Source: Chalara sp. BL73
Taxonomy: Eukaryota; Ascomycota; Leotiomycetes; Helotiales
NCBI GenBank assembly: GCA_918026815.1
Contig: CAKJVC010000012.1
Location: forward strand, 1,612,001-1,676,000
Length of the DNA stretch: 64,000 nt
Direction of reading: 5' to 3'
In this document: positions 3,310-63,987 of the stretch, in pieces
How the letters are laid out: each line of letters starts with the position of its first letter
How positions within the stretch are numbered: position 1 is the stretch's first letter
Notes under the pieces: generated by a model
What the model was told of the DNA's origin: nothing
Databases searched by the model: none
The model's input: only the letters and a program-made list of their open reading frames with translations
Position numbers and translations under genes: made by a program

Positions 3310-3869
3310 CTTAAAAAAGATTTATGAAAGCATGCATTCCAGCTGTCCTAGACTTTACGTCAATATAGCAGCATTTTAATAAAAAAAGCTCCATAACCTA
3401 CCTTGATGATAAAAATAATCAAAGCTGTTGCCGATGCTTGCGTCCGATTGATGGGGCGACTATGGTGTTTAATTAGTGTGTTTGTTGTTCACTTGTGCGT
3501 CGCAAGGATAAAAAGAAAAAGAAGTTGAATTCAAAACACCCTCGAAATCTAGCCTAAATACGGCTGGTTAGTGGCACGTGACATTGAAATGTGTGAGTGC
3601 CTGAGGCATAACAGCCACACTGCCACAAGAAGCTGCCTACTACCAAACTTAAGCAATGTGATTTGCTCGGGTTATCCCGTCATGCAAAACCTTTCCGACC
3701 AAAACCCACGGTTTCAACCTTAAGAACAACTCGTCTTCTCAATAGCTAACTTCACTTTCCTACTTTCTCTTGATTAAGCCGTTTAACAATTCCTCCAAAG
3801 CTACCCTACATCAATTGACAGTCAGCGCATAAGTAGTGCTAATACCAAGAAGTAAACGAAAATACCTTA
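3310..3869. other. Intergenic between two minus-strand genes
   Basis: Probably holds the promoter of the kinase-like gene and the 3' UTR of the Cys-rich gene. I see no repeat or coding frame here. Confidence 0.4.
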
Positions 3870-13860: not shown

Positions 13861-14402
13861 TCATGGTACAGCGTATAGCCTGGCGCAAGAAGCGTGCATA
13901 ATTAACTTAACTTAACTTAGTCCAGTAGGGCGGGTTTGTTGCACGTCGCTAGAGTGGTCGCCCTCGCGTCGCCCGCCCTCCACTAGACACGTGGCAGCCA
14001 TTGGTTGGCTCGTCCAACTCTTAGCTTGAATACACATTCCCTACAAGTGTTTATCAAAATGGTAATTCCAGACTTTGATTCTCTTCAAATTCGTATCACC
14101 AACGGTTCTGGTATTCAAGGATACTTATTTCTCTGCAAAGCTTGACAAACAGAAAAACTGTAAGTTCAAAGTAAAATAGCTAAAACGAATTGGCCAAGTG
14201 TATGAAGTATACCCTCAGCTTGGCTGTGCTGTATCTAATAGTTTGAGTTCCTCAGTCTACATTCATCTTCATCAACACATCGCCACCTCTATTTTTCACT
14301 TCGCTACAACTGTTAGTGCCAACGAGTATCTCGTCGGCGGCCCATTAAAGTAATACCAAGTGGGGGAAAATCCCACGTAGCGAGCAATCCTACGGCTGAA
14401 CC
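13861..14402. other. Upstream region of the HET gene
   Basis: No coding frame supported. Likely promoter and 5' UTR of the HET gene; the start at 14403 is preceded by GGCTGAACC. Confidence 0.4.
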
Positions 14403-16529
14403 ATGTCAGCACTCGGAGCTTCCGCAGAAACCAAATGCAGAAGGTCCTCCCGTAAGGCGGTGGTGGAGTCAAGGAATATTACCCGGGTGGTAAAACCTAA
14501 GAAGAAAAGATCAACGAGGAAAACAGTTGGAAACCTTGATGAAAGTCTACTCTGCGAGCTCTGTCAGGTGTCAAAAAAGATGGGAAAATTCAGCATCATT
14601 TCGAGCGGCACTTGCTTGTATTCCTATGGAGATCCAGAGGATATCTCAAGAAGAGCCACATGTCCCTTGTGCCACCTGATCCATTCGCTTATTCCGACAC
14701 CGACTGGCCGGATTACTGCTTATGCTCACTTCAGAATTCGACCTCTGGAGATTTCGCAGAACGGCCTTATCATAGGACGTATCCGAAAGGAAGCCGATAC
14801 AATGCCGCCGCTCATTGAAGCAGGAATGCAAACACGCGACGCTGTCGTCCCTCTCGACCCTACGCTCATACGGAGTTGGATTACTGAATGCAAAACCCAT
14901 CACGTCTCTGTTCATAGCGGCACTGCGAGCTCTAGGTATAAAACTCCCGTCGACATTACGCTTATCGACGTGTCTCAGTACCGACTTGTGCGCACATCTT
15001 CGGAATGCAGTTTTGTAGCGTTGAGCTATGTCTGGGGCGCGAAGAAGAAATTCCACACGACAAGCACAAATCGGTCGAGCCTAGATCAAATTGGGTCGCT
15101 AAAAAAGATATGGCCACAAATACCTGTCGTAATCCAGGACGCAATCGAGTTTGTGAGGCTTCTTGGGGAAACTTGCTATTTATGGGTCGACAGCCTATGC
15201 ATAGAGCAAGAAAATATAGCGCAGAAGAAAACGCAGATCTCTCAAATGGACATTATCTACAGCCAGGCTATCTTGACGCTTATTGCGCTTTCGGCAACTG
15301 ACGGGGATTCATGCCTGCCCGGTGTTCGCTCTGGAACAAGATTGCCTATCACGTCTGTATGCATGGTTAACGGAATGCGCTTCACTGCCACACCGCCTTC
15401 GTTTTCCGAGGTCGGTGAAACTTCAAAATACTACTCTCGAGGATGGACGTATCAAGAACAATTGCTTTCCCAGAGACGCCTCTACTTTACACATCAACAA
15501 GTTTATTATGTCTGCCATGGATGTACCCGTTCTGACACCATGGAGAAGGAGTATGTTGAGCCGGTTGATCAGGTCACACTGCACATTGCAAGAAGACCTG
15601 ACCCCACCAAGAGCCATAGCTGGATCACCTCATTCACGACGTACGCTTGCCTCGTTCTCGAGTACACATCGAGGGAGCTTTCTCATCAAACCGACTCCGT
15701 GAATGCATTTTCTGGTCTGCTCACGGTCTTGATGGACTGGCTTGGTGGGTCTTGCATCAGCGGGTTACCAGAAACTATACTGGATGTTGCTCTTCTTTGG
15801 ATCCCCGTCAGCCCCAACCGGCACGAACGCAACCCGTGGTTTCCAAGTTGGTCTTGGGCAGGTTGGCGTGGGCAGAGCCAATACAGATGTGGACCCATCT
15901 TTCCATGGGACCACAAGGCAGCCGGGTCTTACGAGTTTAACGGGAAAGTGTACCTCCCTTTGGATGACAGTTTCATGGTTTTCAACCCTGTTAGGAGCGA
16001 GATCGAACAATTTCACTCTTCACACCAGACGCAACCCCGTAAAATTTTTAGGGATACTTCAATGGTAGAAGAGATTCAGGACACCGAAGGGATCAGCTCA
16101 GAACTGCAGCATCCTAGGGATTGGGGCATGGATGTTCTCCATTTCTGAGCCTATTCAGTGCATGAGGATGCGTTCTCGCTTTCTGAGCCCCCTAAGGGTT
16201 CCCTTGACACGGTCTCGTTCGTCCTCAATCGCAAGCAGCAACACTGCGGACTATTCCTCCTTCCAATTTCGGATGAACCAAGAGTCCGGAATATAAGAAA
16301 TCGCGACTATATTCTTTTACCGAGAAGCCAAGTTCCTAAGAAGGGAAGCGATTGGTTTCACACGCGGCTCTTTGATGCTCAGATATTCAATGCTGGGCCT
16401 TGGTGTCTTCTCAATGTCATGCTTATCGAGTGGAGGGACGGACACGCAGAACGTATTGGAATTTATCAGATTCATGAAGATGCTTGGGCACAAGCTGGTC
16501 CGAAAAAGAAGAAGATCGTGTTAGCTTGA
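14403..16529 (+). pseudogene. HET-domain protein gene with one in-frame TGA
   Basis: The frame from ATG 14403 encodes 581 aa to TGA at 16146-16148; the same frame then runs open for another 127 codons to TGA ending at 16529. HET-domain marks: FVALSYVWGA (block 1), DAIEFVRLLGETCYLWVDSL with CIEQ (block 2), SQMDIIYSQAILTLIALSA, and YSRGWTYQEQLLSQRRLYF (block 3). An N-terminal Cys pair region (CELC, CPLCHLIH) and basic stretches precede it. The residues around the stop, LHF-stop-AYSVHEDAFSL, fit the usual LHFWA-type continuation, so Trp (TGG) has become TGA. HET proteins trigger cell death on non-self recognition. It could be a recent pseudogene, a C-terminally shortened protein, or a readthrough case. 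Confidence 0.8.
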
Positions 16530-21556: not shown

Positions 21557-24500
21557 TTAGGTGCTTTTTCCCGACACCGTCTCTTGGAGCTGTAGCGTTT
21601 TCCGGTATATAGCTTTAGCTTTTGCGTGCTTGCCTTGGATGCGAAGTAATTTCGCGAGGTTCATCATGCTTATAAGCGTGTTTAGGTGCTTTTTCCCGAG
21701 CACTTTTTTCTGGAGCCGTAGCATTTTCCGGTATATCGCTTTAGCCACTGCGTGCTTGCCCTGGATGCGAAGTAATTTCGCGAGGTTCATCATGCTTATA
21801 AACGTGGCTGGGTGCTTCTTCCCAAGCACTTTTCCTTGGAGCTGCAGTATTTGTCGGTGCATCGCTTCGGCCGCTGCATACTTGCCCTGGCGGCCAAGCG
21901 ATAATGCGAGATTGTTCATGCTTCCGAGCGTATTATGGTGTCTTTTCCCGAGCACCGTTTTTTGGAGCTGTAGCGTCTGCCGGTGTATCGCTTCGGCCTC
22001 TGCATACTTGCCTTGGCTGTCAAGCGATATTGCGAAGCTCACCATGCTTTTAAGCGTGTCTGGGTGTTCTTTCCCGAGCACCGTTTCTTGGAGCGGTAGC
22101 GTTTGCCGGAGTATCGCTTCGGCTTCTGCGTGCTTGCCTTGGCGGCCAAGCGATAATGCGAGGTTCATCATGCTTCCAAGCGTGTCTGGGTGTTTTTTCC
22201 CGAGCACTGTCTCTTGGAGTTGCAGCGTTTCTCGGTATAGAGCTTCTGCATCTGCATGCTTGCCCTGGTTGCCAAGCGAAAATGCGAGGCCCATTATGCT
22301 CATAAGCGTGTCTGGGTGTGTTTTCCCGAGCACCGCCTCTTGGAGCTGTAGTGTCTGCCGGTGTATCGTTTCGGCCACTGCATACTTGCCCTGGCGGCCA
22401 AGCGATAATGCGAAGTTGTTCATGCTTCCGAGCATGTCTGGGTGTCTTTTCCCGAGCACCGCCTCTTGGAGCCGTAGCGTTTGCCGGTGTATCGTTTCAG
22501 TCTCTGCATACTTGCCCTGGTTGTCAAGCGATAAAGCGAGGCCTACCATGCTCACAAGCGTGTCTGGGTGTTCTTTCCCGAGCACTGTTTCTTTAAGCTG
22601 TAGCGTTTGCCGGTATATCGCTTCGGCCTTTGCATACTTGCCCTGGCTGCCAAGCGATGATGCGAGGTTGTTCATGCTCATAAGCGTGTCTGGGTGTTCT
22701 TTCCCGAGCACCGTCTTTTGGAGCTGTAATGTTTGCTGGTGTATTGCTTCGGCTTCTGCGTACTTACCTTGGCTACCAAGCGATGCTGCGAGGTTGTTCA
22801 TGCTTCCGAGCATGTCTGGGTGTCTTTTCCCTAGCACCGTTTCCTTGAGCTGTAGCGTTTGCCGATATATTGCTTCGGCTTCTGCATACTGGCCTTTAAT
22901 TTGGGAACACCATCCTAACTTGTGTAACAACCTCCCCAGCAGCTCTTTTGTCTCTTTTGTTTTACTATGGCCAGTATTGAAATTAGCAATAATATTCTGC
23001 GCGTGAGGAAAATACATTATCCATATAGCTCTATTCTCATGCTGAGGCCATGGGAAAACACTCGTGATCTGACTTAAGGTTTTTTGGTTCAAACTTCTCC
23101 ATTCGTTTTTAAGCTTTAACCAATTCTGCATCGCTGTATGAACTAGTCGATGCATATCATATGACCTCCTACTAACGCGTTCTTTTATTAACCCAAAAGA
23201 TTTCAAGGTTCCAAGTGCTTCTTCTTTGTCGAATTCAGAAGCTGAAGGCAACAAGTCCCGGGGAATATCTTGCTCTTTAATACAAGATATAAAAGCCATG
23301 TAGTCCGCTGCTAAAGGATCTCGGTCCTGGATTTGTTGAAAAGAAATAAGCCAGGTTGTAGCCACTGGATTTTTCATATCCGGATATCTTCTTACGTCCT
23401 CAAAGTCTTTGCTTAACAGCTTGATAACATTATCGCTGCTTTCGTTATAAATTCTGAGATACTTGGCGATAGTGCTAACTTTGGCATTTAAGTATGCGGC
23501 TGCTTGCATTATTGCGAGTGGAAGGTTAACGAGCAACTCTAAAAGCTTTACAGTACCGCCATGGTCATTAAGGAGCCGTTTGTTTTGAAGACTTCTTTGA
23601 AGAAGCTCTCTGGATTCTTTGTCATCCATTTCGTCTATATCAATAACATTTGGGCCAGCGTATCTCGTGGCAGCTTCACGATCCCGAGTTGTAAAAAGAA
23701 TCGCGCCAAAAGTACTAGTAGGGAGATACTCAGATAATCCACTGGATCCACTGTCATTGTTGTTGTAACAAAATATTCCGAAGTCATCCGCGTTATCTAC
23801 AATCATAAGCCATTTCCCTGTGCTTTCTTGGGATAGCTTAGTCTTGACTAATTTTTTCACGTCTGCTTCGTCGTCCTCAAGCCCGGGTATCTTAAGCTGC
23901 AGTCCAATATCGCGATACGCGTTTTCGAAACTTGCTATATCACTAGCCCGGACCCAAAATACAGAACATGCCGGAGAAATCAACTGGAGCTGAAAAGCGC
24001 ACTCCAAGGCAATTTGGGTCTTTCCAATTCCACCAAGGCCTACTAAAGCTACACGTTGACAGTTTTCCTCGGTATCCTCGGTGTGTAGAATTGTAATTAG
24101 CCGATTTAAATGAGACTGGCGGCCAACAAAATCCTTATTGCGACCAAAAGGGAGTACCTTAAGTGGCTTGACAATGGCTGATTTGAGTTAGCTATAATCA
24201 CCAGAGCTAAATCACGAAATCATAGCTTGACTATCTCACATCGTCAAAAGGATCAAGAAAATAGTGACACCACTCTTTCAATTAGAGGAAATAATCTTGC
24301 AAACACGAGTCATGCTAAAGTGAGACTGATATTCAGTAAAAGTCATCTACTCACAACGCATATTGACCACTTCTTGTTCATCGATGAACCCAAGAAGCAG
24401 CCTAGCAAATGCCGCAGCCGTGGCCGCAGCATAGGGCTGCCATATTTTGTTTTTGTGCGAATCCGCATAGTCACAAATGCCCCTAATCACAAGACACTGA

Positions 24501-25300
24501 AAACTGTCCATCAATCCGGCTGCTTCCATCTCGAAACAAATTACGTTTTCCTTCTTGGCTATCTTGTCTCGAGTAGTACCATGCTTCATCACTTCGTTCC
24601 CAGATGCAATGTTCCCATAGTGGATCCTGGGACTAGGGTTTTCGCGGGCTAGTCTTTGCACAATTAACGTAGGGTCGCAGTTATTACACGTCTCGTCACC
24701 TTCGTGGTCATAGGTAGCTTTAAACAGCTGATCGTGATTTTCCCCTTGATATCGATATGTCTGGCCCATTCGCGGCTTATTCTGAACCATCAAAGAAAGG
24801 GACTCTTCTAGATTAACACCGTCTGTAATATCAAACGTTTTCAATTCTTGCAATGCGTGCAGTAACACCGGTGGTGGTTTATCCAAGGAACCAGTCCGCC
24901 GAAATTTTCCATCTTTTTCCATCTTTCCAAAGTCCCATTGTACAACACCACCATGAGTGCCAGTAGGTTGACTAACAACAACGTCTCCAAGACGGATATC
25001 GCTTTTCTTGCTCCAAACCCCTCCTCCAATGCCTACCATAAGACCAAACTTGATTGGAAAGCCGCGTCGCATATTGTTCGCGACAATAGCAGCAGGACCA
25101 TTCCCTATTAAGCCGGCTGGAAGGCAAGCAATAACGACATTGTGCACCCCAATTCTACCTAGTGTGTATTCGTTGTCGTCGCCGTTTTCCTTCTTTAATT
25201 TAGAATGAGTTTCATCTAGCATAGCCACCATAGCAGCTTTTTCAATTGCTAAGGCGCATATAACTCCGATTTGGTAGTCTGCGTGTGTTCGAGAAGGCGC
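21557..25300 (-). CDS. NLR-like receptor: nucleoside-phosphorylase-like, NB-ARC, TPR
   Basis: Model: complement(join(21557..24177, 24355..about 25300)); the 177-nt intron starts GTGAGT and ends CTAACTCAAATCAG and joins the frames cleanly. Exon 1 is a PNP/UDP phosphorylase-type domain: IGVICALAIEKAA, TLGRIGVHNVVIACLPAG, GLMVGIGGGV, RLGDVVVSQP, NVICFEMEAAGL and VIRGICDYADSHKN. Exon 2 has DFVGR, P-loop GLGGIGKTQIALE, KWLMIVDNADD (Walker B) and ILFTTRD, a winged-helix-like stretch, then 10 full TPR units of 42 residues (GKYAEAEAIHRQTLQLQ..VLGKEHPDTL..MNNLALSLG.Q) and a partial one. No in-frame ATG lies upstream of IGVICALA before a TAA at 25376-25378, so a small first exon is missing from the model. 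In fungi this architecture is linked to non-self recognition; the phosphorylase-like domain may act on nucleosides as effector. Confidence 0.85.
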
Positions 25301-25829
25301 TTCTGAGACTAGAGTCCGTGCAGAAACATGGCGTTGCGCAGCTTCTCCGGCAGCTTCATCCTGTATCCACTCTTTTTAGTCTCGGTTCCCCAGGAGACTG
25401 AGAATTACATTATACATACTGGAGAATTCATCTTAATCTTGGTCGCAGAAGCAGTGTCAGGCTGACATTCGTGCTAAGCATGACAAGGCTGTCGCCGATG
25501 CAACGAAGGTTATTAGCGGTGATCAGATTTGGTCGAATGTGCGGCGCTCATCCAAGCTTTAGGGCTGTAATTCAAGGCGTTAGACCAATGTCTTATCCAG
25601 TGTGTTCAATTCTGTTTGTGAAATCTGATTACAGCAACCAGCTGCTTGGGCGGCAAGCGCACAGACCAGTCGTGCCTAGAGCCCCAGACATTGTCAGCCT
25701 CGTGCAATAACTTGACTATCCGTAGAACTTTGGCTAGTTTAAGGCTTGATAACTGCTAATAGTATATACCCAAAGAAGGAAGTCGCAAGATAAAAAAAAC
25801 CAAACAAGGAAAAACTCTGGGTCGAAGAT
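25301..25829. other. Upstream region of the TPR receptor
   Basis: Should contain its missing first exon and promoter. I could not fix the first exon by eye. No other gene seen. Confidence 0.4.
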
Positions 25830-27083: not shown

Positions 27084-29741
27084 CTAGCGACATCCCACAA
27101 ATGTAACATGGCCAGAGGTATGCCCCAAGACGAGGATATTGGGATGAAATACCCAACATGTCGCTCGATAATCAAAAGGAAGATAAAGGAATTTTTGCGT
27201 TTCTGAATGAGTCCAATTTCCTTTAACAGACATTTTACTCATAGTTTGCAACTGCAAGGGGAACACGCCAGCCTTCAGAGGCTCAATAATCAATAATCCT
27301 CTGTCTGTCTCCAGATACGGTTCCGTTTTAGCATAAGATAGCTTCATAAGCACTGTTTCAACTTGGAGGATGTGTAGTAAATCTCCCTTGGCTGAATTCC
27401 AGAGCCTGACTGTCTTATCCCCAGATGCGGATACTATTTTGCCACCGTCCGGCGAGAATGCCACGCGAAGAACTCAGACGAACAATCAAGGGTCTTTGAG
27501 TCTCTGCTGTCTAGATCCCAGATCCTGGCGGTTCCATCTAAGAATGCAGATGCCAGCTTCTTGTTGTCCGGCGAGAATTTCATGGCGGAAATATATTGCT
27601 CGTGGCCGTCAAGATACACCGGATCTGCAGAACCTGTAGTCAAGTCCCAGACAGAAATGGTTCTACTGTGTATCGTCGCCACCCGCTTATTGTCTGAGGA
27701 GAATGCCACCGCTTCAAACCACCCTTGTCCACCGAAGAGCGTCTGAAGCAGAGTTCCTGTGGCCAAATCCCAAATAATGACCGATCCATTCTCGGATACG
27801 GATGCCACGAGCTTACCGTCTGGCGAGCATAGCACAACGGAGACGTTCTCTAAGTGTTCCCCAAGCATTTGTGATGAAGTCACCTCCGTCAAGTCCCAAA
27901 GTCTAACCGTGCTATCGCCAGAGACGGACGCCGCTAACTTGCCATCTGGCGAGAATACTACGGCGCTGACCCAGCTTGTATGACCCTCGAGTGTTCGTAG
28001 TAAAGCCCCTGAAGCCGAGTCCCAGAGCTTGATAGTTCGGTCACTAGATCCAGACGCAACAAGCTTGTCGTCCGGCGAGAATACCGCAGAGGAGACGGAA
28101 CTTGCATGGCCCTTGAGCGTCTTTGGAGTTTTCGTGGCAGGTTCCCATAGCCTAACCGTACAGTCGCGGGATGCGGATGCCACTAGTTTGCTGTCCGACG
28201 AGAATGCTACAGTCCAAACACAGTCTGAATGCTGGAACGCCTCTGTATCTCCAGTATCCAAGTTCCACACTCTAACCGTCTTATCAATAGACGCGGAGGC
28301 CAGCAGCTTCTTATCTGGCGAAAATGCCACAGCCGTAACCGCTTCCTTATGGCCCTCAAGCTTTTTCTTTAAATCTCCCGTAGCCGGGTACTAGATCCTA
28401 ACCACGTAGTCTGAGAATCTGCCTCCAGACGCGAGCAGTGTACTGTCCGATGAAAATGCCAGCGGCTTGACGAAGTCCGGATGGTTGAGCGTCTTCAGAT
28501 CTCCCTTGTCCAAGTTCCAGACTCTGGCGGTCTTGTCCCAGGATGCAGAAGCCACTAGCTTGCTATCCGGCGAAAAAACCACAGTGGTCACTTCCATAGT
28601 ATGCCCTTCAACTATCTCCTTCAGAGCCCCTGTGGCGCAGTCCTATACTTTGACTGCGCTACTGCATGCAGACGCTACCAGCTTGCCGTTTCGAGAGAGC
28701 GCTATCGAACTGCATTTAAGCCTGTGCAGCAGAGCTCCCGTAGCTGAATCCTAGAACTTGATTGTATTATCATCAGATGCGGACGCCACCAACTTTCCGT
28801 CCGTAGAGAATGCTACGGACATGGTCCTATCTGAATGGCCCTCAAGTGTTTGCAAACAAAGGCACCAATCTTCTGGCACTTTTGGTAGCATATTGACCGG
28901 GGAAGGCATTTCATTCTTGAACGTATCTCGAATTATGCTATGCTCTGGCGCGAAAACGAGAGCGGAACAATACACTTGAAGGGGGGCCTCTTCAATCATT
29001 GATCGATGACATAACACGAATAGCTTGGCGTTGTGAATAAACGCATACAGACGGGGGCTTTGTTCGACTTTTGCCTGTTAGTCAAATCTTTATAAGTACG
29101 CTGCCAAGTTCTTTACTCCAACGGCAAATTGAAATTATTGCTAAAACACCATCCGAAGTCTTCTTCATCCAGCTGAAGGCTTCAAGCCAATGAAGCAAAT
29201 GCTCCTGCAGGAATCTATGAACTTCGCCATCGTCCTGGAGTAAAGTGTCGCTCTTCAGAAGATGCTCAACCCAGTATATGTTCGCATACTGAAAGAAAGC
29301 TGGGAGGTGTGACCATAGACAGCTTCTATCCACTTCGTTCGTGAGCGTACCAGGCGTCCATAGATTGCAAATATCTCTCCTAAGGTTGTCAGACAGGAAA
29401 TCTATGCAGAACTTAAATAGAAGGCCGTGGAACAGTCCCTCCTCTATCCAGAAGAGTGGATCTTCACATGTCTGCTTGTCGTGGAGAAGGCCGCGAAAGA
29501 AAGGGGATAAGAGGCGAATTGGCGAATCTACAATGTCAGGGACATCGGTAATCGAATTCAAATGAAGTAGTCTTAGACGAATAGTCTCCGGGTCAATGCG
29601 TAGTAAGTTTGCAAGTGCATAGTTCAAGGTCCAGCTGTATGACGCATCCAGAACCGAAGCTGACTGCGCAAAAGCTGAGCTGTTAGGGTTATCACCAGCC
29701 AGGTGTTCCGTCCGGCAGCGAGGATGGACCAGAGTTGACAT
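27084..29741 (-). pseudogene. NACHT-WD40 receptor, N-terminus lost, Trp-to-stop mutated
   Basis: 29082-29741 encodes the region that follows NACHT in fungal NWD proteins (PIRLLSPFFRGLLHDKQTC, NEVDRSCLWSHLPAFFQYAN, HLLHWLEAFSWMKKTSDG). After a frame change near 29080, AFIHNAKLF.LCHRS and APLQVYCSALVFAPE lead into about 12 WD repeats down to 27434; the closing segment follows in another frame (27084-27464). Within the repeats three in-frame TAG codons (28751-28753, 28643-28645, 28391-28393) each replace the Trp of the repeat motif, as in IKF-stop-DSATG. A one-base shift lies near 27475. No P-loop or effector domain remains upstream. Clearly non-functional. Confidence 0.85.
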
Positions 29742-33235: not shown

Positions 33236-36200
33236 TCATCGCAATGCTTTCAGCGTAGCCACCGAGCTCCAAAACATCGAAACAATCGCCACCGCGGCTA
33301 TGAACGGGACCGAAGCATTCTGCAAGTCATCGGGATGCACAAACAGCCACCAAGCCCAAAACGCAAACGTGCTAACAAAGACTAGGCAGTGATAAAACAA
33401 AACCAGTAGGAAATGGGGTGTGTAATGGGCTTTCAAGCCCCAGGCCACTTCGGGCTGGTTGTCCGTGAGCTGTAAACGGCATTTTCTTTTCGGGATACGT
33501 TCCAGAATTGCGTTGCCGCAGCGGGGTTCAACGCAATCGTGGAACGAGGCGAGCGGACAGGTGGGCTTGCAAGGTGGACGGAGTGCGAACTCGAACTCAT
33601 GAGGAAAGATGTGAGGTAGCTCTGTGTCTGGAGGCTTTGGTGTGTATTCATAAAGATCGTCCGTTGGGAGGTCATTTTTAGTGAACAGGACTCGGTTTTT
33701 CTGGACTTTCTTGAACTACTCACTATCAGTACATTATGCAGGCGATACTATAAGTGGAGATCACCATTGCCATTTCACAGTCTTTGAGTTGCCATATCGA
33801 CAGCCAGTACCTGAAAAAACCTCTTTTCTCTTTGTATCGGATTCGAATGTTGCGAAAGAACGCTTCGTCGTCTACCCTCTGATCAACGTTTATGTGAGCC
33901 AGCTCCAGGGTCCGCCGTGCTCCCTGCACCGCAAATAAAACGAAGAGTTCGCTAGGTGCTGGTATAAAAACACCAGTACTTTGATCAGTAGCTAATGCAG
34001 GTATAGACCGCGATGGCGAATTACCAATTGGAGTTCTTGCGCATTCAGGAAGACGTCCGTGGATTGGCGGCCCTGCCTGAGAAGCGTTATGTAAAGGAAT
34101 ATCGGGCTCTTGAGTCTTGAAGGCTGGCAAAAAGCTAATTCCAAGTGCTTGATTTATCCATCCCAGCCACGGTCCTCCAAACCTTCTGCCTCGTCTTGAA
34201 GTACATAAATAGCGATGTTGTAAAGGATTATCAACTTTCTGAGCAAGCAATGCTTTATATGTTTGAGCATGTGGCTCCCATAGCTCTACCCACAAGTGTG
34301 TGCCACAACGCTGGTTATTGGTTAGCTCTTAGTAATTTAAACTCTTGCGTCATAACTTACACATCGCCAGTGAACACGGGTACGGTTCTTTTGCAACATT
34401 CGCATCTTCGGTCGCATAGGCCACCAGTTCCAATTTTCCTCTGTTATATTCTCGATCGCAATCTTGAACTTATTCACAATTGAGTTGTCGTTTTTATCCG
34501 AAAACCAAATATCGCTTTTTGGAACCGACATTAAAACGCGAGTAAGTGATACTAAAGAGACAGGAAGAAGGAAGGTCTGGAGGCTCGTTAACAGCCTGCG
34601 AAATGAGTCTCCTTCCAAAAAGAACTTCTCCACTTCGGCAATCTTTGGAAAGACATTCGAGTGTTCAACGTTGTGGCTATAATTACTCCTATTGCTATTA
34701 ATGTCGTCGCTGTCCAGCTCAGATGCTTGGTCTAAATCTTGCTCGGCGACCCTTTCCGTCCGACCAAACCAGGTCTCATCTAGCTGAGTAGTCACAGCTT
34801 CATTGACTATTTTGTCCCCCTGGTTGAATCCAGGATTGCTGGAAAGCCAAGACTCAAGCCGGGCTCTTTTGTTTGGGACTTCTGAGACACTCGGTTCTGG
34901 ATCATCAATAACTTCTGGGTCCGCGATATCTGAGATCTGCTGTGCTATTCTGACCCTATTCCATCTGCTGCGTAGAGGAAAAACTGATGCTTTTTCCAGA
35001 TTTGATTGAGCAGTCTTGAAAAGGTCTAGATAGTACTGCTTGAGCAATCTCCTCAGATTTTGGACAAGACGTTCCTTGCCGATCTTTGAAAGGATGACTT
35101 TATACAATGGACTAAGCTGGTTGTGTCGTGCTAGTAGCTCTCCAATTTGATCACTAGCAAACTTGTATTGTGCTGTTTGCTTGGTAGCTGATTGTGACTG
35201 GATATTATCTGAAACAGAAGGAATCGACTGGATATCGTCCTCGTTATTCCAGTCAAATACGCCACCATTGCTAAAGAGCCCTGAATCATTACCGATAGAA
35301 ATTTCCTGCTTTTGTTCAATGGCCAAACTACCTTCTAAGCTCCCGATGGCGGAGTCACGAACCGGCAGCGCGCCTTTGTCGAGGAGCAGCCTGACCACAG
35401 TTTCGTTTCCTTGTGATGCTGCTGCTTGAAGTGCATTGCCGTACTCCCCGCCTTGAGCGTGAATATCGGCGCCTTTGTCAAGAAGCAGCCTGACCACAGC
35501 TTCGCTTCCTTGTGATGCTGCTGCTTGGAGTGCGTTACTATACCGTCCGCCTTGAGCGTGAATATCGGCGCTTTTATCAAGGAGCAGCCTGACCATAGGT
35601 TCGCTTCCCCGATATGCTGCTGCTTGGAGGGCGTTGCCGTACCTTCCGCCTTGCGCGTGAATATCGGCGCCTTTGTCGAGAAGCAGCTTGACCACAGGCT
35701 CGCTTCCTCGATACGATGCTGCTTGGAGGGCATTGCCGTGCTTTCCGCCTTGCGCGTGAATATCGGCGCCTTTGTCGAGAAGCAGCTTGACTACAGCTTC
35801 GCTTCCCCGATATGCTGCTGCTTGGAGTGCATTGCCGTGCTTTCCGCCTTGCGCGTGAATATCGGCGCCCTTGTCGAGAAGCAGCTTGACCACAGCTTCG
35901 CTTCCCCGATATGCTGCTGCTTGGAGTGCATTGCCGTGCTTTCCGCCTTGCGCGTGAATATCGGCGCCTTTGTCGAGGAGCAACTTGACTACAGCTTCGC
36001 TTCCCCAAAATGTTGCCGCTAAAAGTGCATTGCCGTACTGTCCGCCTTGAGCGTGAATATCGGCGCCTTTGTCGAGAAGCAGCCTGACTACAGCTTCGCT
36101 TCCTTGTGATGCCGCTGCTTGGAGTGCATTGCCGTACTCCCCATTTTGCGTGTGAATATCGGCGCTTTTATCAAGGAGCAGCCTGACTACAGCTTCGCTT

Positions 36201-39200
36201 CCTTGTGATGCTGCTGCTTGGAGGGCGTTGCCGTACTTTCCGCCTTGAGCGTGAATATCGGCGCCTTTGTCGAGGAGCAGCCTGACCGCGGGTTCGCTTC
36301 CTTGTGATGCTGCTGCTTGGAGTGTATTGCCGAACACTCCGCCTTGGGCGTTGATGTCGGCTCCTCTGTCGAGCAACAGCTTCATAACTACACAACTTCC
36401 TTTCAAAGCAGCACTTTGCAATGCACTTCCTGACCCCCCAGTCTGGTAATTCACTTCTGCACCTTTTTCTAACAGCAGCTCTACGACTGCCTCATGTCCA
36501 CCGGCTGCCGCGCGCTCTAATGGTGTGCGTTGCCCGGCGTTTCTTGCATCTATATCAGCACCTCCATCAAGGAGTATACTAACTATTTTCTTGTGGCCAC
36601 AGCGAGCAGCATAATGCAGAGCTCTATTACCCTCGTCATCTTCCGCTTCTAAAGACGTTTCTGATTCCAATAGCGCTCTCACTATGCTCTCGAGATTCGA
36701 AGCAGCCGCCAAATGTATTAATTTTGTTTTCATTAGTGGACACCTGCTATCGTATCTATCTATCTTTCTGAAGATCATTATCCAATGAAGAAAGTGCTGA
36801 GCAGAAGGCCATTGAAATTGCTGAATAAGGTCACGTTGGGGAATATTCCAACTTTCTGCTTTCTGTGCATGCAAGAACCAAGACTTCGTTGCGTACTCTG
36901 AGAAAGGAAGATTTGCAGTTATTGTCGACTTATCTGCTGACCTCGAATTTGCTACGTCTTGAACTTCTTCTAGTTTCAAGTAGTTGATACAAGATCTAGA
37001 TAACCGGCCATGTCCTCGACCAATAGCATCTCCAGTGGGACTTTGATCAAGCCATTCGAAACCTTCCCTGAGCAGGAAGTCGTTAACCGACTGGTGGATG
37101 AATTGAATAATGTATTTGTCTTGGTGAAATTTAACTTCTGCCAAGCCTCCAGATAGAGCAATGGTCATCTTTTTCATCCGCTCGTCGCTTTCGACAAATC
37201 CGGTGGATTCTTGAGCGTAATATTGGAATCGGTGAATCGAGGAATCATCCGAGGCTAGAGCGAATCGGAGCTCGGCCAGTGAAAGAGGCCTCTCAGCAAG
37301 ACATATCCATTGCATTAAGTGCAGTGTCCGTTGCCGGTCTTTAGGATCTATAAGCATAAGGATGTGGGTATAGATATTACCGAGATCTGATGGAACTTCT
37401 TCTAGTGTCTTAAATATTTCTTCCGAGGCTCTTCTTTCGTTATATTGCTTTGCGATTACTGGAATAATAAGAGCGGCCCACAGGAATACTCCTGACGCTT
37501 TGCTTAAGATATGCGTTTGTAATAAGTTTAGGTCATCTGACCCCAACTCACGGTCTTGCACATGCATCTGCCTTTGGAGTTCTGCTAAAGTATACGTTGA
37601 GATATCCTTGTAATTCTCGTCTTCCACGCAAATATGAGCACCATTATTGGTCTTGACGATAGGGAAATGACGACAAGAGAAACAGATACTTATGGCATGC
37701 TTTGAGTTAAGCAGTAGCTCGTTCATCTCGTGAAGATAAGAGACGATACGCCGCGCTGAGTCTCCGCCAGCTTCATCAAGAGCGTCCACAAAGATAATAA
37801 TGGAATGGGTTTTCACTGCTGAGATCAGAGAAGACTCTAGAACTCTACGAAGCTCTGGTTCGCGCCATTCCCAATCCTTTACAAAATCTCCCTGGAACTT
37901 TCTCTTCTTTTCATACAGCCTCTGGAAGTCAGCACTAGCCGACGGGACTTGACTCAATAATTGATATATCATAGTCCGAAACATGCCGATGGGAGTCCGC
38001 TGTAACTGAGTACCTCCCTTGTGGAAGAAGAAGGCAAGATGGATACGCCCGCTGGCCCCGTCCTTATTGAATTCCCGCAAGATTCTTTTCATCAAGGTAG
38101 ACTTTCCAGAACCGGGTTTTCCTTGGATCCAGAGCAGACCGCGATTATCCTCTCTCCATGTCTTATATTCTTTGTGCTGGAGAATCCATGCACACAAATC
38201 CGCGCGTGCGTCTAGCACTTCGTCTTGCCGATGTCCCATTTCTGGAAAGGCTAACGAGTCAAGATATCCTAAGAGATATATCAGGTTAAGACGAGAGGGA
38301 GTCCTTCTCAGAGAGTTAAGACAAAGATTGGGGAAGAAGCCCTCCTCTTTCTAGGACAGCTCAATCTCAAAAAGTTCTGAGAACGACTGAGTCGGCACAA
38401 ATTACATCACCCAGCACTCTCGAATTTATAATAGAAATGTACATACGTGATTCAAGGATGGCCGACTGGAATTCGGCAGGATGTTTGACTACTGGTGCAG
38501 CTGTCGAAGCTGATGGGGCTGGCTCCGAGTGTTTCTCGGGAACATATCTTGGTGGTGCTTCGTTAATGAAGTGCTGAATGGCTGCTGAAACTCTGATGTA
38601 ACCTGATTCGTCTTTGTTCACAAATTTACATATTCGAGAATGCGTCCCATCAAGGGGAAGATTTTTGTTTACCGCTGGGTTTTCAATTGAAGCTGATGTA
38701 TCATTGACGACGCGTCGTCCCACAAGCTTGAGGGATGTCATGCCAGAAGACTCGTAGAAGCAACGGGTGTAGAATCGTGCTTCGCGGAGCAAGGATGTGA
38801 AATCACTGTTTAGTTGCTCCAAGTACTTACTGTTCTTTCGGAGATCTTCCAAGATTGATGTGTTTACGCTCTGTCCGGCAAAGAAAGCCAATTTTTCCAG
38901 CTGTTCCGCCCAATCGGCCCCCTTGCTTCCATGGTGCGGTGTTCCAATGAATGCTATCCCTCTGGTGTATTTGTATATGGATTGGTCTTCTGGATTCCAT
39001 TGTGACATACGTGCGGATTTTCGTAAGATCTCCTTCAGGATGATGCCACCAAGACTGTGCACGATAAATATAAGATGTCGTTCGCTCTGAAATACAAAAT
39101 GTTAGCGAGCCCAATTATCACCGAGATAGTGATGCCTACGTCGGCTTCCCGCATCCGGATCAAATCCTCCATTATCGCATCTGCGTGTGCCTTAATGCCA

Positions 39201-39965
39201 TTCCGATCTTGTCCTTGCAGAAAGCGTATTGGACGGGAGTCATAACCACACGTGAGAATCCGTGCTTGCTGGAATCTTTCATCATAAGACAAAATATCCC
39301 GAGGCCAAAAAACCTTGTCTAGACTCTTATCAGATGAATCTAAAGATAGTTCTATTTTGTCGGGTGGATAGTCTGCTATGATGGGGTGCTGATCTTGATT
39401 TGATGTCGAGTCCTCTTGAGCCTCACCAATCCCAGAAGGTAAGGAAGCCCCACTTAAAGACGTTGAACTTTGGCTGGTCCTCATCACTTTGTTCTCATTC
39501 AACGTGCGATTCTTCAATCCGATTATATCTGGCTTACTAGCGTCGTCGTCCTCCTGAACTTTCTTTCGTTGGATCTTGCCCCAAATTCTTTTATGCAGAC
39601 TCTTCTCCTCGATATTCCCCTCATTTGTCTTTGGTGCATGCTTTCGCGACTCCTTCCCTTGTCTCGATCTCGACGAGCTTCGGCTCTGATCCCTCTTGTG
39701 TTGCGGCTTTGGCTTGACAGCCGTCCAGGTGTCTACGGGATGGCCGCCCAGCCCGTGAATAAAAACAAGGCTACTCACAAAACATCAGCCATTTTTCATT
39801 ATGGAAAGACACAGGGGAATGGGAAAATAACCCAACTTACTCGAGAAGAGCCTTATGGCCGTCTGATGGCTCAGAAACGACGCTAATTCCCACTTCTTGG
39901 ATATCTGAAAGGGATCGCACTCGAGTCACGGGTGGTCTGAACGACCCTCCACCCTGCGACGCCAT
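33236..39965 (-). CDS. NLR-like receptor: alpha/beta hydrolase, NACHT, ankyrin, membrane tail
   Basis: Model: complement(join(33236..33715, 33765..34310, 34361..38268, 38447..39086, 39140..39770, 39841..39965)); 6330 nt, 2109 aa, no frame break. Introns are 49, 50, 178, 53 and 70 nt with GT..AG ends. Domains: exons 1-3, lipase-like alpha/beta hydrolase (LVFIHGLGGHPVDTW; nucleophile elbow HSLGG; GIAFIGTPHHGSKGADW); exon 4, NACHT (GLLWIQGKPGSGKSTLM, Walker B IIIFVDALDEAG), then 14 ankyrin repeats, most almost identical, then a conserved tail (NWNWWPMRPKM, VHWRC joined to RCGTHLWVEL); exons 5-6, DEAFFRNIRIRYKEKRG, EYTPKPPDTELPHIFPHEFE and two hydrophobic helices (HFLLVLFYHCLVFVSTFAFW; SVPFIAAVAIVSMFW). 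The helices suggest C-terminal membrane anchoring. Fungal proteins of this kind are thought to act in non-self recognition. The weakest joint is the 178-nt intron. Confidence 0.85.
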
Positions 39966-43226: not shown

Positions 43227-44522
43227 CTGGCGACTCTCTAAAAGAGCTCAAAAACCATGCTTCTCTTTGCTTTCCTTCATCTTCTCTCATTCCCGTTCTA
43301 CCCATTCCACCACCTTCAGGTCTAGGTGGTTCGTGTCGATCAGCTGCTTCAGAGCTGTAAATGCCCTGCTCCTGGTCATGGAGTCGGCAGGGTTGCTGTC
43401 GCTATCGATCCATTTGACTTCGGTGATCTCTCTACGCTTGTATGATTGGCGAAGACACATGATATCAATCATAAGGCGCTTCTTTTGTGTAGTACCTAAC
43501 TTGACGAGGCACTCGTAAAGAGATGTAGAATCGGTGCAAAGAATTAGGGGTGAGTCGATTTTTAGCATTTGCTCAATCGTAGCTTTGAGCGTAACACCAA
43601 TGTCGAATCCATAGCCCACGTACCTTCTTGTTGCTTTTTTGCATTTGACTGAGGACCAGGGAATAACGTTAGCTTTGTGTTTTGCGTCTGCCAATACTAC
43701 AACATAGGCTATTTATGATGAAAGGTCTTTGTTGTTGGTAAACGACGCATCCGTAAATACGATTAGGCGGAGTGGTTTGGAGTCGAGGCGTACGTATGTA
43801 AGGCCTCTGGTTTGGTTGTCGATTTGCCATTGGATACGCTTGTTGAGAGCCGTAATGTTATCTTTTTGGGGATTAGTCACCTGGGCAGCAAAAGGTAAAT
43901 CGAAAGAAGCTTCTGGTTAATACATAGAAGCTATATAGGCTCCTCGAGCTCGCTAGGCGACGTATTGCTCCTTAGTCGACAATGCTTTGTGAATTACGCC
44001 TCTAGAGCTGGTAGTAAACGTAAGCTTCAAGTCGACTAGGCTCAGGTTGTTGCATTGGTTTTCCTGAGTTATAGTGACGTTTCCTTGTTCCGTGAGACGC
44101 ATAACACAGCCATTGAATTCGATTAGCTGGTCGACTGTAAAGTGCTCTCGATCTCTTGCAAGGAATCGAGCTCTCTCGAGTTGCTTCTGTTCAGCTGTTG
44201 CAAGCGATTGATCCGCGAGAAATATAGTATTGTCGGTTTGCAAGCCGACTAGACCAAAACTGTCCTGGTTGTGCCACAGCAAGCAGGGGTCGTAAGTTGA
44301 AGGCTTCATTCCGAGTTCTTTGACATGATAATTGTAGTACGTCTTGAACCAGTGGTTACCGGCTTCTAGAACGCCGTACAAGGGCTTGGTGACTTTCAAG
44401 ATTGATCCTTTTTCGATGCCTAGCTCGAGGCCGAGCTCACGGGGTGGTTTGATATAGAAGTCACGGTTCGGCTTCTTAATTGATTGAACATAAGCCTGCG
44501 AAATATCTCCGAAGCTCACTAA
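43002..44522 (-). mobile_element. 3' half of a Ty1/copia retrotransposon
   Basis: Minus strand: reverse transcriptase C-terminal part (FGDISQAYVQSIKKPNRDFY, VTKPLYGVLEAGNHWF) at 43953-44519, then RNase H (LIVFTDASFTNN, LILCTDSTSLYECLVKLGTT, DSDSNPADSMTR) down to 43287, then the 3' LTR at 43002-43226. Gag, protease, integrase and the 5' LTR are missing. The same frame carries three stops (43953-43955, 43917-43919, 43713-43715), each where the family has Gln. Confidence 0.85.
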
Positions 44523-45027
44523 CCGTCGCCACCGTCACCCCCGAAGAAAATTGAGGCAGCGGACATATAAAAGCTGACACTTTTAAAGCCGCCTAGGATT
44601 TTGCCTCTTAAGTGACCAGACTTGGAAGCGGCTTATTCTGAAAGCTCCGCGGACCGTCCTGCGAGACAATCACGCCCAGTTCCGGGCGCCACGGCAGAAA
44701 GAAGTTGGGCAATTAGCTTCTACTAAAAAAGTGCCGCTAGTTAGAAAATCTTAGTGTGCTGGCGCTAATAATACGGTCTAGATCTGGAGCAATAGTTGTA
44801 ATAGCACTAATCCTGAGCTAAAAAAACAACTTGTCACACGTTTTATTGTTACTAGCTTGAACTACCGTTGCAGTTTCAGGCCCGGAAAAGCAATATAAAA
44901 TAGTTAATAATAAGCTTGAAATTCGGTTGTTATTCTACAGTGTTATTTTGGGGCCGTAACATCAGCAGTAAGCGTTTTTCTCCGCTGCGTTATAAAAAGG
45001 AAGGCCTGATAACACATTAGCGCGTAA
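44523..45027. other. AT-rich interval, no gene seen
   Basis: Contains a few short copia-side scraps at most. No frame supported. Confidence 0.4.
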
Positions 45028-47628: not shown

Positions 47629-47632
47629 TTCC

Positions 47633-47855
47633 TGTTGGTATGAGTGAATAGCACACACGGCGACGCACGGACTACATGGATGTATTATAGCACTCGTACG
47701 TAGATTAGCACTTAGAACAATTCAAGAACAAGTCAACCACCTGCAACGAGCATAATAGCACTGCGCTGAGATCGCGGTGCTACGTGCCCCGTGGGTAACC
47801 GACTTAAGCAATTGCAAGTCACTAATACGAAGTATTACAGAGAGTGATACAAACA
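47633..47855 (+). repeat. Copia solo LTR
   Basis: TGTTGGTATGAGTG..GATACAAACA, inserted 5 bp after the stop codon of the preceding gene. Flanks GTTCC and GTCCC may be a TSD with one change. Confidence 0.8.
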
Positions 47856-48879: not shown

Positions 48880-49905
48880 TCTCAAAAATATACGCACACG
48901 CGGATCTACTTTGTCTTGACGAGGAGCGGAAACCAGAAGAGAGGCAGACAAGCAATAGAATAGAAGCGTTTGAAGATCGCCTGCGCGACCCAGGTAGAAA
49001 AGCCATAAGAACCATAATATCAAGCCAGGAACAAGTATCAAGAAATGGTGGATAGAAACCATAAAAAAGAAATATCCTCCATGGCAAGTATATCCCAGAA
49101 AACCTCGCGCGTATAACCATTTTCCTCCAGCCTCCGCGTCTTTTCTAGAATCCGGCTCAGGACTTAGGCTTGTCGGCACTCACTACCGCATCTGTGGAAA
49201 GCGCTCAGAATCATGATCTTTGACATCGAGCAGCGATTATAACAGGTATAAAAACGTCGTCGGAACTCATGCTTAGTAATAGGCGGCAAGCGCTCTACGG
49301 GCTTGGGCGTATATTGATACATCAAGTTGTCTGGGTCTGGACCGCTGTCCTTGTCCTGAGGGACTATCTCGTTATCGCCAATTTTTTCAAACTACCACCG
49401 TTAGTGACGATTCAGTAGAACATTAAAAGTACATTACTTTCACGAAATGGCAATGAGCATATCCGTAGATGCTAAACCATCTTCGCATCAGCCCTCGAAG
49501 TGCAGTGTACTGGTATCTCAACTCCTTGAAGAAATGGCCATCTGGCATGACTGACGTCTCGGACTTCGATTTGGGCTAGACGTAAGTCGCCCCCAATGGC
49601 TACCCCTAAAAGCACATATGTAGTGGGCAAACTCGGAAAGTTTAGGTTGTTCTTGTCACAATCTCCGTGGACAGAACCATGTTCGTCTGTGGATTGTTGT
49701 GAGAAGTATATCCGTGTCGATTCTGAATCAAGCCAAGCGAGTGGCGATTCGCAGGGTCGAGTTGCATATCAGTCCCGGAGTTCGTCGCCTGGGTGGTCGA
49801 GTCAGAATATGGCGCGCTAGGAGGTATTTGCGTGCTTAACGAGCTCGTAGCTTGCTTCAAGAGTTTGCCAAATCGTGTTGCAAAGGGAGAGGAACATCTT
49901 CCCAT
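48880..49905 (-). pseudogene. Decayed copy of the receptor membrane-tail exons
   Basis: Minus-strand pieces follow the order of exons 5-6 of the gene at 33236-39965: LRLAQIEVRDVSHA, then DGHFFKELRYQYTALRGLMR and WFSIYGYAHCHFVK, an intron-like GTAATG..GGTAG, FEKIGDNEIVPQDKDSG, LMYQYTPKPVERLPPITKHE, and a hydrophobic stretch (HHFLILVPGLILWFLWLFYL). Several frame changes separate the pieces. No NACHT or repeat part is attached; a copia LTR lies at 49993. A fragment of a second receptor, or of a stand-alone gene of the tail family. Confidence 0.6.
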
Positions 49906-49992: not shown

Positions 49993-50215
49993 TGTTTGTA
50001 TCACTCTGTGATACTTCTTCGTATTAATTACTTGCAAGTGCTTAAGTCGGTTACCCACGGGGCACGTAGCACCGCCATCTCAGCGCAGTGCTATTATGCT
50101 CGTTGCAGGTGGTTGACTTGTTCTCGTATTCATTCTAAGTGCTAATCTAAGTACGAGAGCTATAATGTGCATGTGGTCCGTGCGTCGCGGGGTGTGATAT
50201 TCACTCATACCAACA
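49993..50215 (-). repeat. Copia solo LTR
   Basis: TGTTTGTATCAC..CATACCAACA, same family as 43002-43226, ending 66 bp before the ATG of the SRPK-like gene, so it forms part of that gene's upstream region. Confidence 0.8.
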
Positions 50216-51731: not shown

Positions 51732-51820
51732 TTAAATGGTAGAATCCATCCAGGTGTCTTTCCTGATAATGAAAGTAGCCTAAAGTCGAAGTCAGGATTA
51801 AGACAAGTCTATTTGACTAC

Positions 51821-52045
51821 TGTTGGTATGAGTGAATAGCACACCGCGCGACGCACGGGCAGCATGGATGTATTATAGCTCTCGTACGTAGATGAGCACT
51901 TAGAACAATTTAAGAACAAGTCAACCACCTGCAACGAGTATAATAGCACTGCGCTGAGATCGCGGTGCTGCGTGCCCCGTGGTCAACCGACTTAAGCAAT
52001 TGCAAGTCATCATACGAAGAAGTATCACAGAAGGTGATACAAACA
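51821..52045 (+). repeat. Copia solo LTR
   Basis: TGTTGGTATGAGTG..GATACAAACA, same family as 43002-43226 in the opposite orientation. No exact TSD. Confidence 0.8.
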
Positions 52046-58052: not shown

Positions 58053-61000
58053 TTACCCATTGTCATTCAGGCGATCAGCTGGTTCCTTGCCCTGCAAGTA
58101 GCAATCAAGCCAGTATTGTAGGTTTGCCGGAGGACCTTTTGCTTTAGGGTACTCGTCGTGGAAAGCCTTTAGCTTGTATGGCGCCCCTTTAAATCCTTCG
58201 GCATCATAAAATACAGGGTCGTAATCTATGCCTACCCATTTGACCTGGTACTGAAGCCTTCGGCGGTACTTTCGGCTTTGCAGAACTTGCTCGATTTCCC
58301 ATTCCGGTTGTTGGTTGTAAACTACAGGTACTGGAGGCTCTTGATGCTGGCCTGGTAGCGGGTCGCCAGGGTCTTTCCGCAGGAGTTCCGGTGCAAAAAC
58401 GTTGCGGAGCTGATTGCCTTCTGGAAGCTTTAGGCGGTACGAGTGACCTACTTGCTCAGTGATTTCATATGGGCCTTCATTCTGGTAGCCTAGCTTTCGG
58501 CTTGGCCGTTCGCTGGTCCAGTTTTTTGTCGAAACCCATACTTTATCCTTGACCTTAAAGTCAACTGGTCGTCGGTGCTTGTTGGCCTGTATTGCTTGTT
58601 GCTTTTGGGCTTTGGCCATTGCGGTTTTAGCCCATTCCCAAGCTTTGTGAATCCTTTCAATATGAGCTCGAGCGTCTTTGCGAGCTTCTTTGACATGTTG
58701 TGAAACCGGAACAAAGTCTTTAGGGCGAACCCAGTCTATGTCCATTCGAGGTTGATACCCTAGTTCGACCATGAAAGATGACAAGCCTGTTGAGTGATGT
58801 GGCAAACTAGCTGCTGCGTAGTCTATCGCATGAATCAAAGTAGACCAGTTATCTTGAAAAGCATTGGCAAAGGGACGAAGGCGTTGATCGATCCATTGAT
58901 TTGCGTTTTCAGTCTGACCGTCTGTCTGAGGGTGGTATGCTGTCGAAAGCTTAAGCTTTGTGCCTAAAAGCCGGCAAAACTCATCCCAAAACGCGGAAAT
59001 AAACTGAGGTCCTCGATCCGACACGATAGTTGTAGCAGGACCATAGTACTTATGGACATGCACTAAATACAGCTGAGCCATAGTTCTAGCGTCGACTGTT
59101 TTGTTGCAAGGGATCGAAATAGGGCGTTTGCCGAGCCTGTCTATAAACACGCATACCATATTCATGCCTTTTTTGTCGAGAGGCATGTCTTTGAAATCAA
59201 CTGATATATGCTGCCAAGGGCGGTCCGGTATTGGCAGTGAGTGCAACAGCCCTGGAGTCTTGTCTCTAGGGACTTTAGACCTACGGCAAGCGTGACAATT
59301 GCTTACAAAACGCTCAATATCGTCATCCATTCCGAGCCAGTAGTACCGTTCTTTAATCAGCTTTTTTGTCTTGTCTTGGCCTGGGTGAGCTGTAGCTAAG
59401 CTACAGTGTGATGCTGTAATCAAAGCAGTCCGTACTGATTCGGCTACTACAAGCCGGCTTTTCTTTCTTTAGCAACCCGTTTTCTAAGCTGTAGCCTCCT
59501 TTGCTTTCTTGACCTAGTTTTCTTGCAAGGTCTAAGTCTTGAGCAGTTCGGTTGGCCTGCAGGATTTCGTCGATCAAGTCGAGCTGTTCCTCAATTGGCG
59601 ACAACGACAAAGCTACCCGGTTCACTTCGAGCTCTGCAGTGCTTAACGCTGAGCTCGTGTCGAGCTTTGCAGTGCCTGGCGCTGAGCTCATATCGAGCTT
59701 TGCAGTGCCTGGCACCGGGCTCATGTCGAGTTCTTGAAGGATCTGAGGATCAAGCTGTGCTGGGGATAAAAGAGCCTGATCTCGGTTCTCTCGCTTTGCT
59801 TGGTCCAAGCCTTTTGTCTGGTCTTGTCGTGTCAACGGGTCGGCTTTGTTGTGCTTGCCGGGCTTGTAAGATATTTTGAAATGGTACCGAGAAAGAATCT
59901 CAGCCCAACGGGCTTGTCTAGCTGATAGCAGCTTGCTCGACATGAAGTATTCTAAAGCTTTGTGGTCTGTAATTACCTCAATGTGATTTTTGGTGCCTTC
60001 GAGCTCGGCACGCCAATATTGCAACGCTTTAACAATAGCTAGCATTTCTTTGTCGTGAATTGGGTAATTGGTTTCGCGGGAGCCATAGTTTTAGAGAAAT
60101 ACCCTACAGGATGCCATTCACCGTCAAGGCCTTTTTGAGAAAACACAGCTGCTACTACAGTGTCCGAAGCGTCCGTCTCCAGCATGCACTGACTGTCTAA
60201 ATCGTAGTGAGCCAGCAAAGGAGCACTTATTAGCATAGCTTTGAGCTTGTCGAATGCTTGAGTACACTTGTTGTCGAAAACAAACTCGTAGTCAGCACGA
60301 GTCAACTGAGTTAGCGGTGCCGCAATCTGGCTGTAGCTTCGAATAAACCTTCTGTAGAAATTGCAAAAACCTAGAAAAGATTGAACTCCTTTAACTGTCT
60401 TCGGAGGTTCCCAGTCTGCAATTACTCGTATTTTGTCTGGATCTACTTGGATGCCGTCAGTCGAAACAATGAATCCTAAGTACTTTGTCCGCTTTACACT
60501 GAATTCACACTTTTTGATATCGGCTTGTAAGCCGGCAGCTTGCAATCTGTCGATTACTTGCTTCACGTGTGCTTCGTGCTGTAGCTCGTTTTCAGAGTAA
60601 ATAAGAATATCATCAAGATATGCTGTACAAATCACATCTAACAGATCTCGAAGAGTGTCGTTAATGTAGCTTTGAAACGTTGCCGGCCCATTAGTAAGGC
60701 CAAAAGGTAAAACTTTGTACTGAAACAAGCCATAGCGAGTGCGGAATGCTGTAAGTTCTTCAGATTCTGGAGAAATCCGGATCCGATGGAATGCCTGACG
60801 GATATCTAGCTTTGTAAAGACTTTGGCTTTGCTTAGCCTAGCTAGCGTTTCGTCAATCAACGGCAAAGGATACCGGTTTTTCTTGGTTAACGAATTCAGT
60901 TTCCGGTAGTCGACACAAAAACGAAGTGAGCCGTCCGACTTCCGCGCAAACAAGACAGGTGATGCAAAAGGAGCTTTGCTAGTAACAACAAAGCCTTTTC

Positions 61001-62378: not shown

Positions 62379-62404
62379 GTGAGCCCTAAGAAAGGAGCCT
62401 TGGC

Positions 62405-63739: not shown

Positions 63740-63987
63740 ATTGCTGTAAAGTGAATTCGAAAATAAAGAGAAGTAGTAGTAATAGCTCAACTCGACTAAT
63801 TAGGAGGAGCGGCTCGACCAGTATGTGCTGGGAGCTGGAGTTGGTGTATACAGGCTTTGACTCTGGCCTATATCTTCACAGACCTCGTCTGTGGCGTCGT
63901 GGAATGGTCTTCACGGTCTTGATTCAATACAAAAGGAAGGGATATTATTAAGCTCCGTCCCCGGAAGGTTTGTAGAGTTTGTTCTAA

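Follow-up and report, generated by a model that had tools for sequence, protein, structure and literature searches.

Fungal NOD-like receptors (NLRs), as described in the examined parts of the survey PMC12258605, follow a plan of N-terminal effector, NTPase, and C-terminal repeats. SesB-like domains are described as lipases/esterases in part of PMC4986451, which attributes phospholipid esterase activity to a human relative, SERAC1. The gene analyzed here lies in a 64,000-nucleotide stretch of Chalara sp. BL73 (the window). It resembles the fungal SesB-like/NACHT/ankyrin NLRs of these two sources in its lipase-like N terminus, its NACHT domain, its conserved ankyrin units, and its modular exchange of parts, but its tail of ~670 residues with two helices is not listed in the parts of the surveys examined. 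Other fungal NLRs also have an extra domain behind the repeats—a zinc finger, SPRY, or protein kinase domain, possibly an integrated sensor (PMC12258605, in part)—whereas the extra part of our receptor appears to be of membrane type, has no Pfam model, and is common to many non-NLR proteins. The Neurospora patatin NLR PLP-1 likewise has an N-terminal lipase-type effector, which controls cell death in PLP-1, but it combines NB-ARC with TPR, its effector is a patatin rather than SesB-like, and a C-terminal anchor goes unmentioned in the examined part of PMC12881547. Ncp of Penicillium herquei was considered as a relative and set aside, a C-terminal anchor being absent from its description in the part of PMC13311144 examined.

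The hydrolase-NACHT-ankyrin order is already known in fungi, as the initial annotation of this locus had noted; what is new is the tail module itself and its place on an NLR. That annotation had also called a membrane-tailed receptor much less discussed, which fits the literature examined. The word “transmembrane” is absent from the fungal-NLR papers PMC12258605, PMC4986451, and PMC9815663, and “transmembrane” passages in the parts of the fungal-NLR literature seen, including PMC12881547, concern the HeLo helix or MLKL. No description of the tail module was found in the fungal-NLR literature searched, which covered few subscription papers. Searches on C-terminal transmembrane helices of fungal NACHT-ankyrin proteins and on NACHT NLRs in Leotiomycetes gave no match, a search on C-terminal transmembrane parts of fungal ankyrin NLRs gave a single match, on wheat rust by title, a search on membrane anchors in fungal ankyrin NOD-like receptors gave matches that were off topic by title, and a search on the shared C-terminal part gave plant topics throughout, by title or abstract, among the matches listed.

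Gene model and receptor front

The NLR gene occupies positions 33236-39965 of the minus strand. Its six exons, when joined and translated, form one frame of 2109 residues followed by one stop codon, and its five introns (49 to 178 nt) are all GT-AG, in agreement with the single open frame first proposed. Its features, in window coordinates, are as follows.

39841..39965, minus strand: exon 1, with the start codon at 39965-39963 in the joined translation
39140..39770, minus strand: exon 2, first part of the hydrolase, with FIHGLGG at residues 45-51 and a low-complexity insert
38447..39086, minus strand: exon 3, second part of the hydrolase, with HSLGG at residues 262-266 and His401
34361..38268, minus strand: exon 4, one open frame that runs from NACHT through 14 ankyrin units into the first half of the tail
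37670..38194, minus strand: NPHP3_N/NACHT NTPase core, residues 491-665, with the P-loop GKPGSGKS at 515-522
35372..36727, minus strand: ankyrin array, residues 980-1431
33239..35368, minus strand: tail module, residues 1433-2109, with introns 34311-34360 and 33716-33764 inside it
34838..35173, minus strand: helical domain of the tail, residues 1498-1609 as aligned with homologue P0008
33765..34310, minus strand: exon 5, which starts within the WxC-xCG motif
33416..33953, minus strand: membrane-proximal domain, residues 1888-2050, broken by the last intron
33236..33715, minus strand: exon 6, with both hydrophobic helices and the stop codon
33338..33412, minus strand: hydrophobic helix 1, residues 2052-2076
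33248..33325, minus strand: hydrophobic helix 2, residues 2081-2106

The weakest point of this gene model is the last intron (33716-33764), whose donor, GTGATC, agrees poorly with the donor consensus usual in fungi. At the other end of the gene, stretches of exon 2 have homologous counterparts in paralogues from the same genome.

The front of the protein has the three parts of a fungal NLR. Within the first 466 residues, the hydrolase scored 18.1 bits against DUF676, under the Pfam cutoff of 20.3, though HSLGG and His401 were kept in all five aligned paralogue pieces from the same genome. The initial reading as an alpha/beta hydrolase with an HSLGG elbow was retained, and this hydrolase-like region, with its conserved Ser and His, corresponds to the N-terminal effector. 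In whole-protein searches, NPHP3_N (114.8 bits; Pfam cutoff, 24.8) and NACHT (29.7 bits; cutoff, 26.7) both passed; with the P-loop at 515-522, they provide the STAND NTPase core. The C-terminal superstructure repeats are ankyrins (Ank_2, 376 bits for the whole receptor protein), with 99-nt units repeated in tandem at 35370-36380 on the minus strand; counting gave 14 in-register units of 33 residues, the number originally reported. The same report had called these repeats near-identical. Two neighboring units are identical in protein, so that a sub-array comes close to that description, but the term is slightly strong for the nine core units, whose mean identity is 82% in amino acids and 85% in nucleotides. 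Amino-acid variety was highest at unit positions 8-10, 15, and 32; positive selection on the units as a whole was considered and is unsupported, with an overall w of 0.23 for the nine core units. An exon-by-exon count gave at least 87 NACHT matches in the 58.7-Mb genome.

The tail and its junction with the receptor

The tail module (residues ~1433 to 2109) directly follows the ankyrin repeats. It had no match in Pfam or NCBIfam, and a fold search assigned no fold to it. The block of homologue P0008 that corresponds to the helical domain had pLDDT values of mostly 90 to 97, and the membrane-proximal domain is possibly ubiquitin-like (beta-grasp). When residues 1500-2109 were searched alone, six homologues were recovered (E values, 1.9e-49 to 2.8e-233), the best being Pseudogymnoascus protein P0001, with 57% identity over the whole searched part. 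The named sources of the six were Pseudogymnoascus, Cudoniella, Cadophora (twice), and Tricladium, the first three of which a look-up placed in Leotiomycetes. A profile of the six tails brought in 26 further proteins. Another tail gene of the same genome, L031, led to a wider family of 41 proteins, all matching the tail profile at E values of ≤7.8e-10 with Z set to 1000; this wider family extends to Penicillium olsonii (Eurotiomycetes) and Candelina (Candelariomycetes). Over 45% of the part searched, L031 itself shares 89% identity with a Bisporella protein. A DSG(Y/F/L) motif, which we assume to resemble a phospho-degron, lies just ahead of the tail in P0001 (614), P0003 (723), P0005 (814), and P0006 (1052); it also occurs in P0002 (1058 and 1080) and, in degenerate form, in the receptor (1460).

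The claim that tail and receptor form one gene is well supported. The start of the tail lies within exon 4, whose frame of 1337 residues also encodes NACHT and the ankyrins, and the first ~290 profile-matched tail residues share that uninterrupted exon. We mapped a tail profile, built with the receptor's own tail included, onto 32 tail proteins and the receptor. The profile was found in full or nearly so in the receptor, P0001-P0005, P0007, and P0008; half of the relatives (16 of 32) end at profile positions 273-279, exon 4 of the receptor ending at 273, and P0009, P0010, and P0014 end at position 455, the end of the receptor's exon 5. The WxC motif, as searched, was present in 35 of 73 tail proteins, 18 of which stop within 60 residues of it. 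Val comes next in all 18, the reading that would be expected from a retained phase-0 GT intron, and among the other 17, 4 continue with Val-Ser (read through) and 13 with xC (the spliced form). L031 has a 55-nt intron at the matching place, after RVRWKC, and both introns in the receptor's tail (34311-34360 and 33716-33764) are placed as in relatives.

Considering the shared exon-4 frame, the conserved intron places, and the homology that crosses both junctions, a separate gene for the tail is very unlikely. The broader case that exons 5 and 6 are unjoined in life, whether as a separate gene or as a decayed end, leaving the receptor that works without an anchor, would suit the weak GTGATC donor and the broken or fragmentary state of other tail copies in the genome (a copy with stops on C112 and a remnant in the window). 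Against it, the tail homology runs continuously from exon 4 to exon 6 across conserved intron places, and all six exons are open, and we consider it highly improbable.

The C112 copy (L034, around 214269-214622) is a fragment of the tail that shares 67% identity with the receptor's exon 6 and holds four TAG stops within the match, which marks it as a broken tail copy. In the window, a second short tail-like piece lies at 49167-49575 on the minus strand, with a hydrophobic stretch downstream to about 48930. It consists of two frames split at profile position 457/456, matching the receptor's last intron, with no receptor front observed alongside. A short repeat occurs three times, in both orientations (47632-47837, 50012-50130, and 51820-52009), around this remnant and a kinase-like gene. 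The repeats at 47.6 to 52.0 kb were considered as an element that had captured the two, a reading rejected because the repeat is an element of ~205 bp with 40 scored genome copies (of 203 candidates) at 92 to 100% identity.

Terminal helices and a possible membrane role

Hydropathy, scored as 19-residue Kyte-Doolittle means, gave two peaks in the receptor, starting at residue 2052 (2.06) and at about 2084-2086 (1.84), both inside the final ~65 residues. The two C-terminal hydrophobic helices of the initial annotation thus recur here and are a property of the family: two strong hydrophobic stretches were found in 41 of 47 sequences that reach the C-terminal motif, compared with 6 of 1480 control segments. 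Likewise, 41 of the 47 end 60 to 68 residues past WG(L/I). The nearest relative, P0001, falls just below the helix threshold (1.57 and 1.57). Q and A in the short linker between the helices are conserved in 25 of the 26 tails aligned, and the AlphaFold model of homologue P0008 has helices at 614-638 and 643-673 in a block with pLDDT values of 69 to 91.

Hydropathy and the model of this one homologue suggest that the helices are inserted in a membrane. Since these two lines make up the case for insertion, and since the helix pair holds Trp, His, and Asp in or near its short linker, the helices might instead pack within a soluble domain or against partners, the tail then being an oligomerization or binding part with no membrane involved. 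Two adjacent stretches with a mean hydropathy of about 2 at the extreme end of 41 of 47 sequences, against the control rate of 6 in 1480, make this alternative improbable.

The explanation we favor, at about even chances, is that a fungal NLR of the SesB-like hydrolase-NACHT-ankyrin type gained a reusable C-terminal membrane-docking module. The helix pair would form a hairpin with both ends in the cytosol, fixing the receptor to the membrane. The ankyrins may sense a non-self or danger cue and NACHT may assemble with ATP, whereupon the clustered lipase-like domain would act on lipids of the very membrane that holds it, leading to local damage or cell death; across the family, a single anchor would serve many sensors. 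Like the membrane insertion, the enzyme activity and the role in non-self recognition are inferred. If the receptor does carry its own anchor, a lipase-like effector would be held beside its likely substrate before activation, and the place of action of such a receptor would be indicated. Several observations count against this explanation: the rarity of tail-NACHT joins, the GTGATC donor, the hydrolase score under the cutoff, the P0001 helices, the lack of an assigned tail fold, and the presence of tails on proteins for which no role in immunity is known.

Tail partners and genomic neighborhood

The tail proteins P0001-P0073, all hypothetical proteins, share the homologous tail and, in 41 of the 47 that reach the end motif, its two terminal hydrophobic stretches but have other fronts (kinase, sacsin-like, cullin, RGS-like, TPR, and WD40). 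Fronts were scanned with Pfam in 32 of the 73, the other 41 being known from precomputed annotation only. Matches over the cutoff were as follows: NPHP3_N with ankyrins (P0022), ankyrins (P0033), WD40 (P0006 and P0012), TPR (P0025, P0027, P0036, and P0040), protein kinase (P0003, P0005, and P0023), sacsin (P0004 and P0055), cullin (P0001, with SesA, and P0009), RGS (P0050), DUF6590 (P0021), Drf_GBD (P0056), and CorA (P0065). Below the cutoff were sacsin (P0002), RGS (P0034), a zinc finger (P0060), and NACHT with AAA_16 in P0073 from Penicillium. No Pfam family was found at the thresholds used in P0007, P0008, P0037, P0047, P0052, P0053, and P0059. Gene-model errors may lie behind some joins, namely the permease of P0011, the methyltransferase after the tail of P0035, and RTA1 in P0002.

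Two metagenomic proteins, P0032 and P0012, have WD40 repeats followed by a tail 82% and 80% identical, respectively, to the receptor's. Homology to the receptor begins at residue 1431 for P0032 and P0001, just past the last ankyrin; the alignment of P0012 is reported from residue 1404, with a poor opening stretch. A tree was built from 28 tails, 3 of the 31 segments (P0032 included) having been dropped for length. It paired the receptor's tail with that of the WD40-borne P0012 (100/100), beside cullin-borne tails. A minimum of two changes on this tree is required for each of the labels kinase, sacsin, and WD40, and of one for TPR; nine long branches leave the deep joins unsure.

Within the genome, other tail loci occur on C112 (with stops), C7, C165, C52, and C184 and as the remnant in the window. 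No NACHT was seen in the tail genes on C7, C165, C52, C184, and C112, in stretches read by eye. This receptor is the sole tail locus seen joined to NACHT, against 87 NACHT matches, so the hydrolase-NACHT-ankyrin-tail combination appears to be rare.

By homology, then, the tail is a wide module that is also present without NLR parts, and it need not concern lipid signaling. This occurrence apart from NLRs, as an extra domain also found in separate proteins, would be expected of an integrated decoy, that is, a tail copied as bait from a membrane-protein family attacked by invaders, with the anchor incidental to signaling. C-terminal kinase domains of Sordariales NLRs have been proposed as such decoys (PMC12258605, section 14), and the decoy is a fair rival to the docking explanation. 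We nevertheless consider it unlikely, as the tail also sits on kinases, sacsin-like proteins, and RGS-like proteins, a spread more in keeping with a general part than with a bait, and no attacker of the tail is known.

It is also possible, and we propose this only tentatively, that filamentous ascomycetes use an undescribed, freely exchanged membrane-docking module as a common base on which fronts are swapped, this receptor being one product. The base would comprise the helical domain, the WxC-xCG segment, a possible ubiquitin-like relay domain, and the two-helix anchor, and the proteins built on it would include NLRs, kinases, sacsin/Hsp90-like proteins, and RGS-like proteins. That a single unnamed tail follows three types of repeat (ankyrin, WD40, and TPR) and also several fronts outside the NLRs suggests a common part by which fungi may dock sensors of different kinds on membranes. 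Since one tail occurs with many fronts, a shared membrane-docking system in fungal sensing could be probed by tagging or deleting that module alone.

Several other frames were observed in the window. On the minus strand at 21560-25375, a PNP_UDP_1 frame precedes an NB-ARC frame that has about 11 TPR units; this is probably another NLR gene, 8 kb from the receptor. There are also a HET-domain frame (14400-16145, plus strand), a WD40 frame (27437-28390, minus strand), a kinase-like frame (2320-3321, minus strand), and a DUF7924 frame (10475-11884, minus strand). Together with the two NLRs, these give the region the look of a non-self-recognition gene island. Retroelement-like frames lie at 58056-63799 and 43956-44534 on the minus strand; they were judged by eye except for 60045-62441, in which reverse transcriptase, RNase H, and protease domains were identified.
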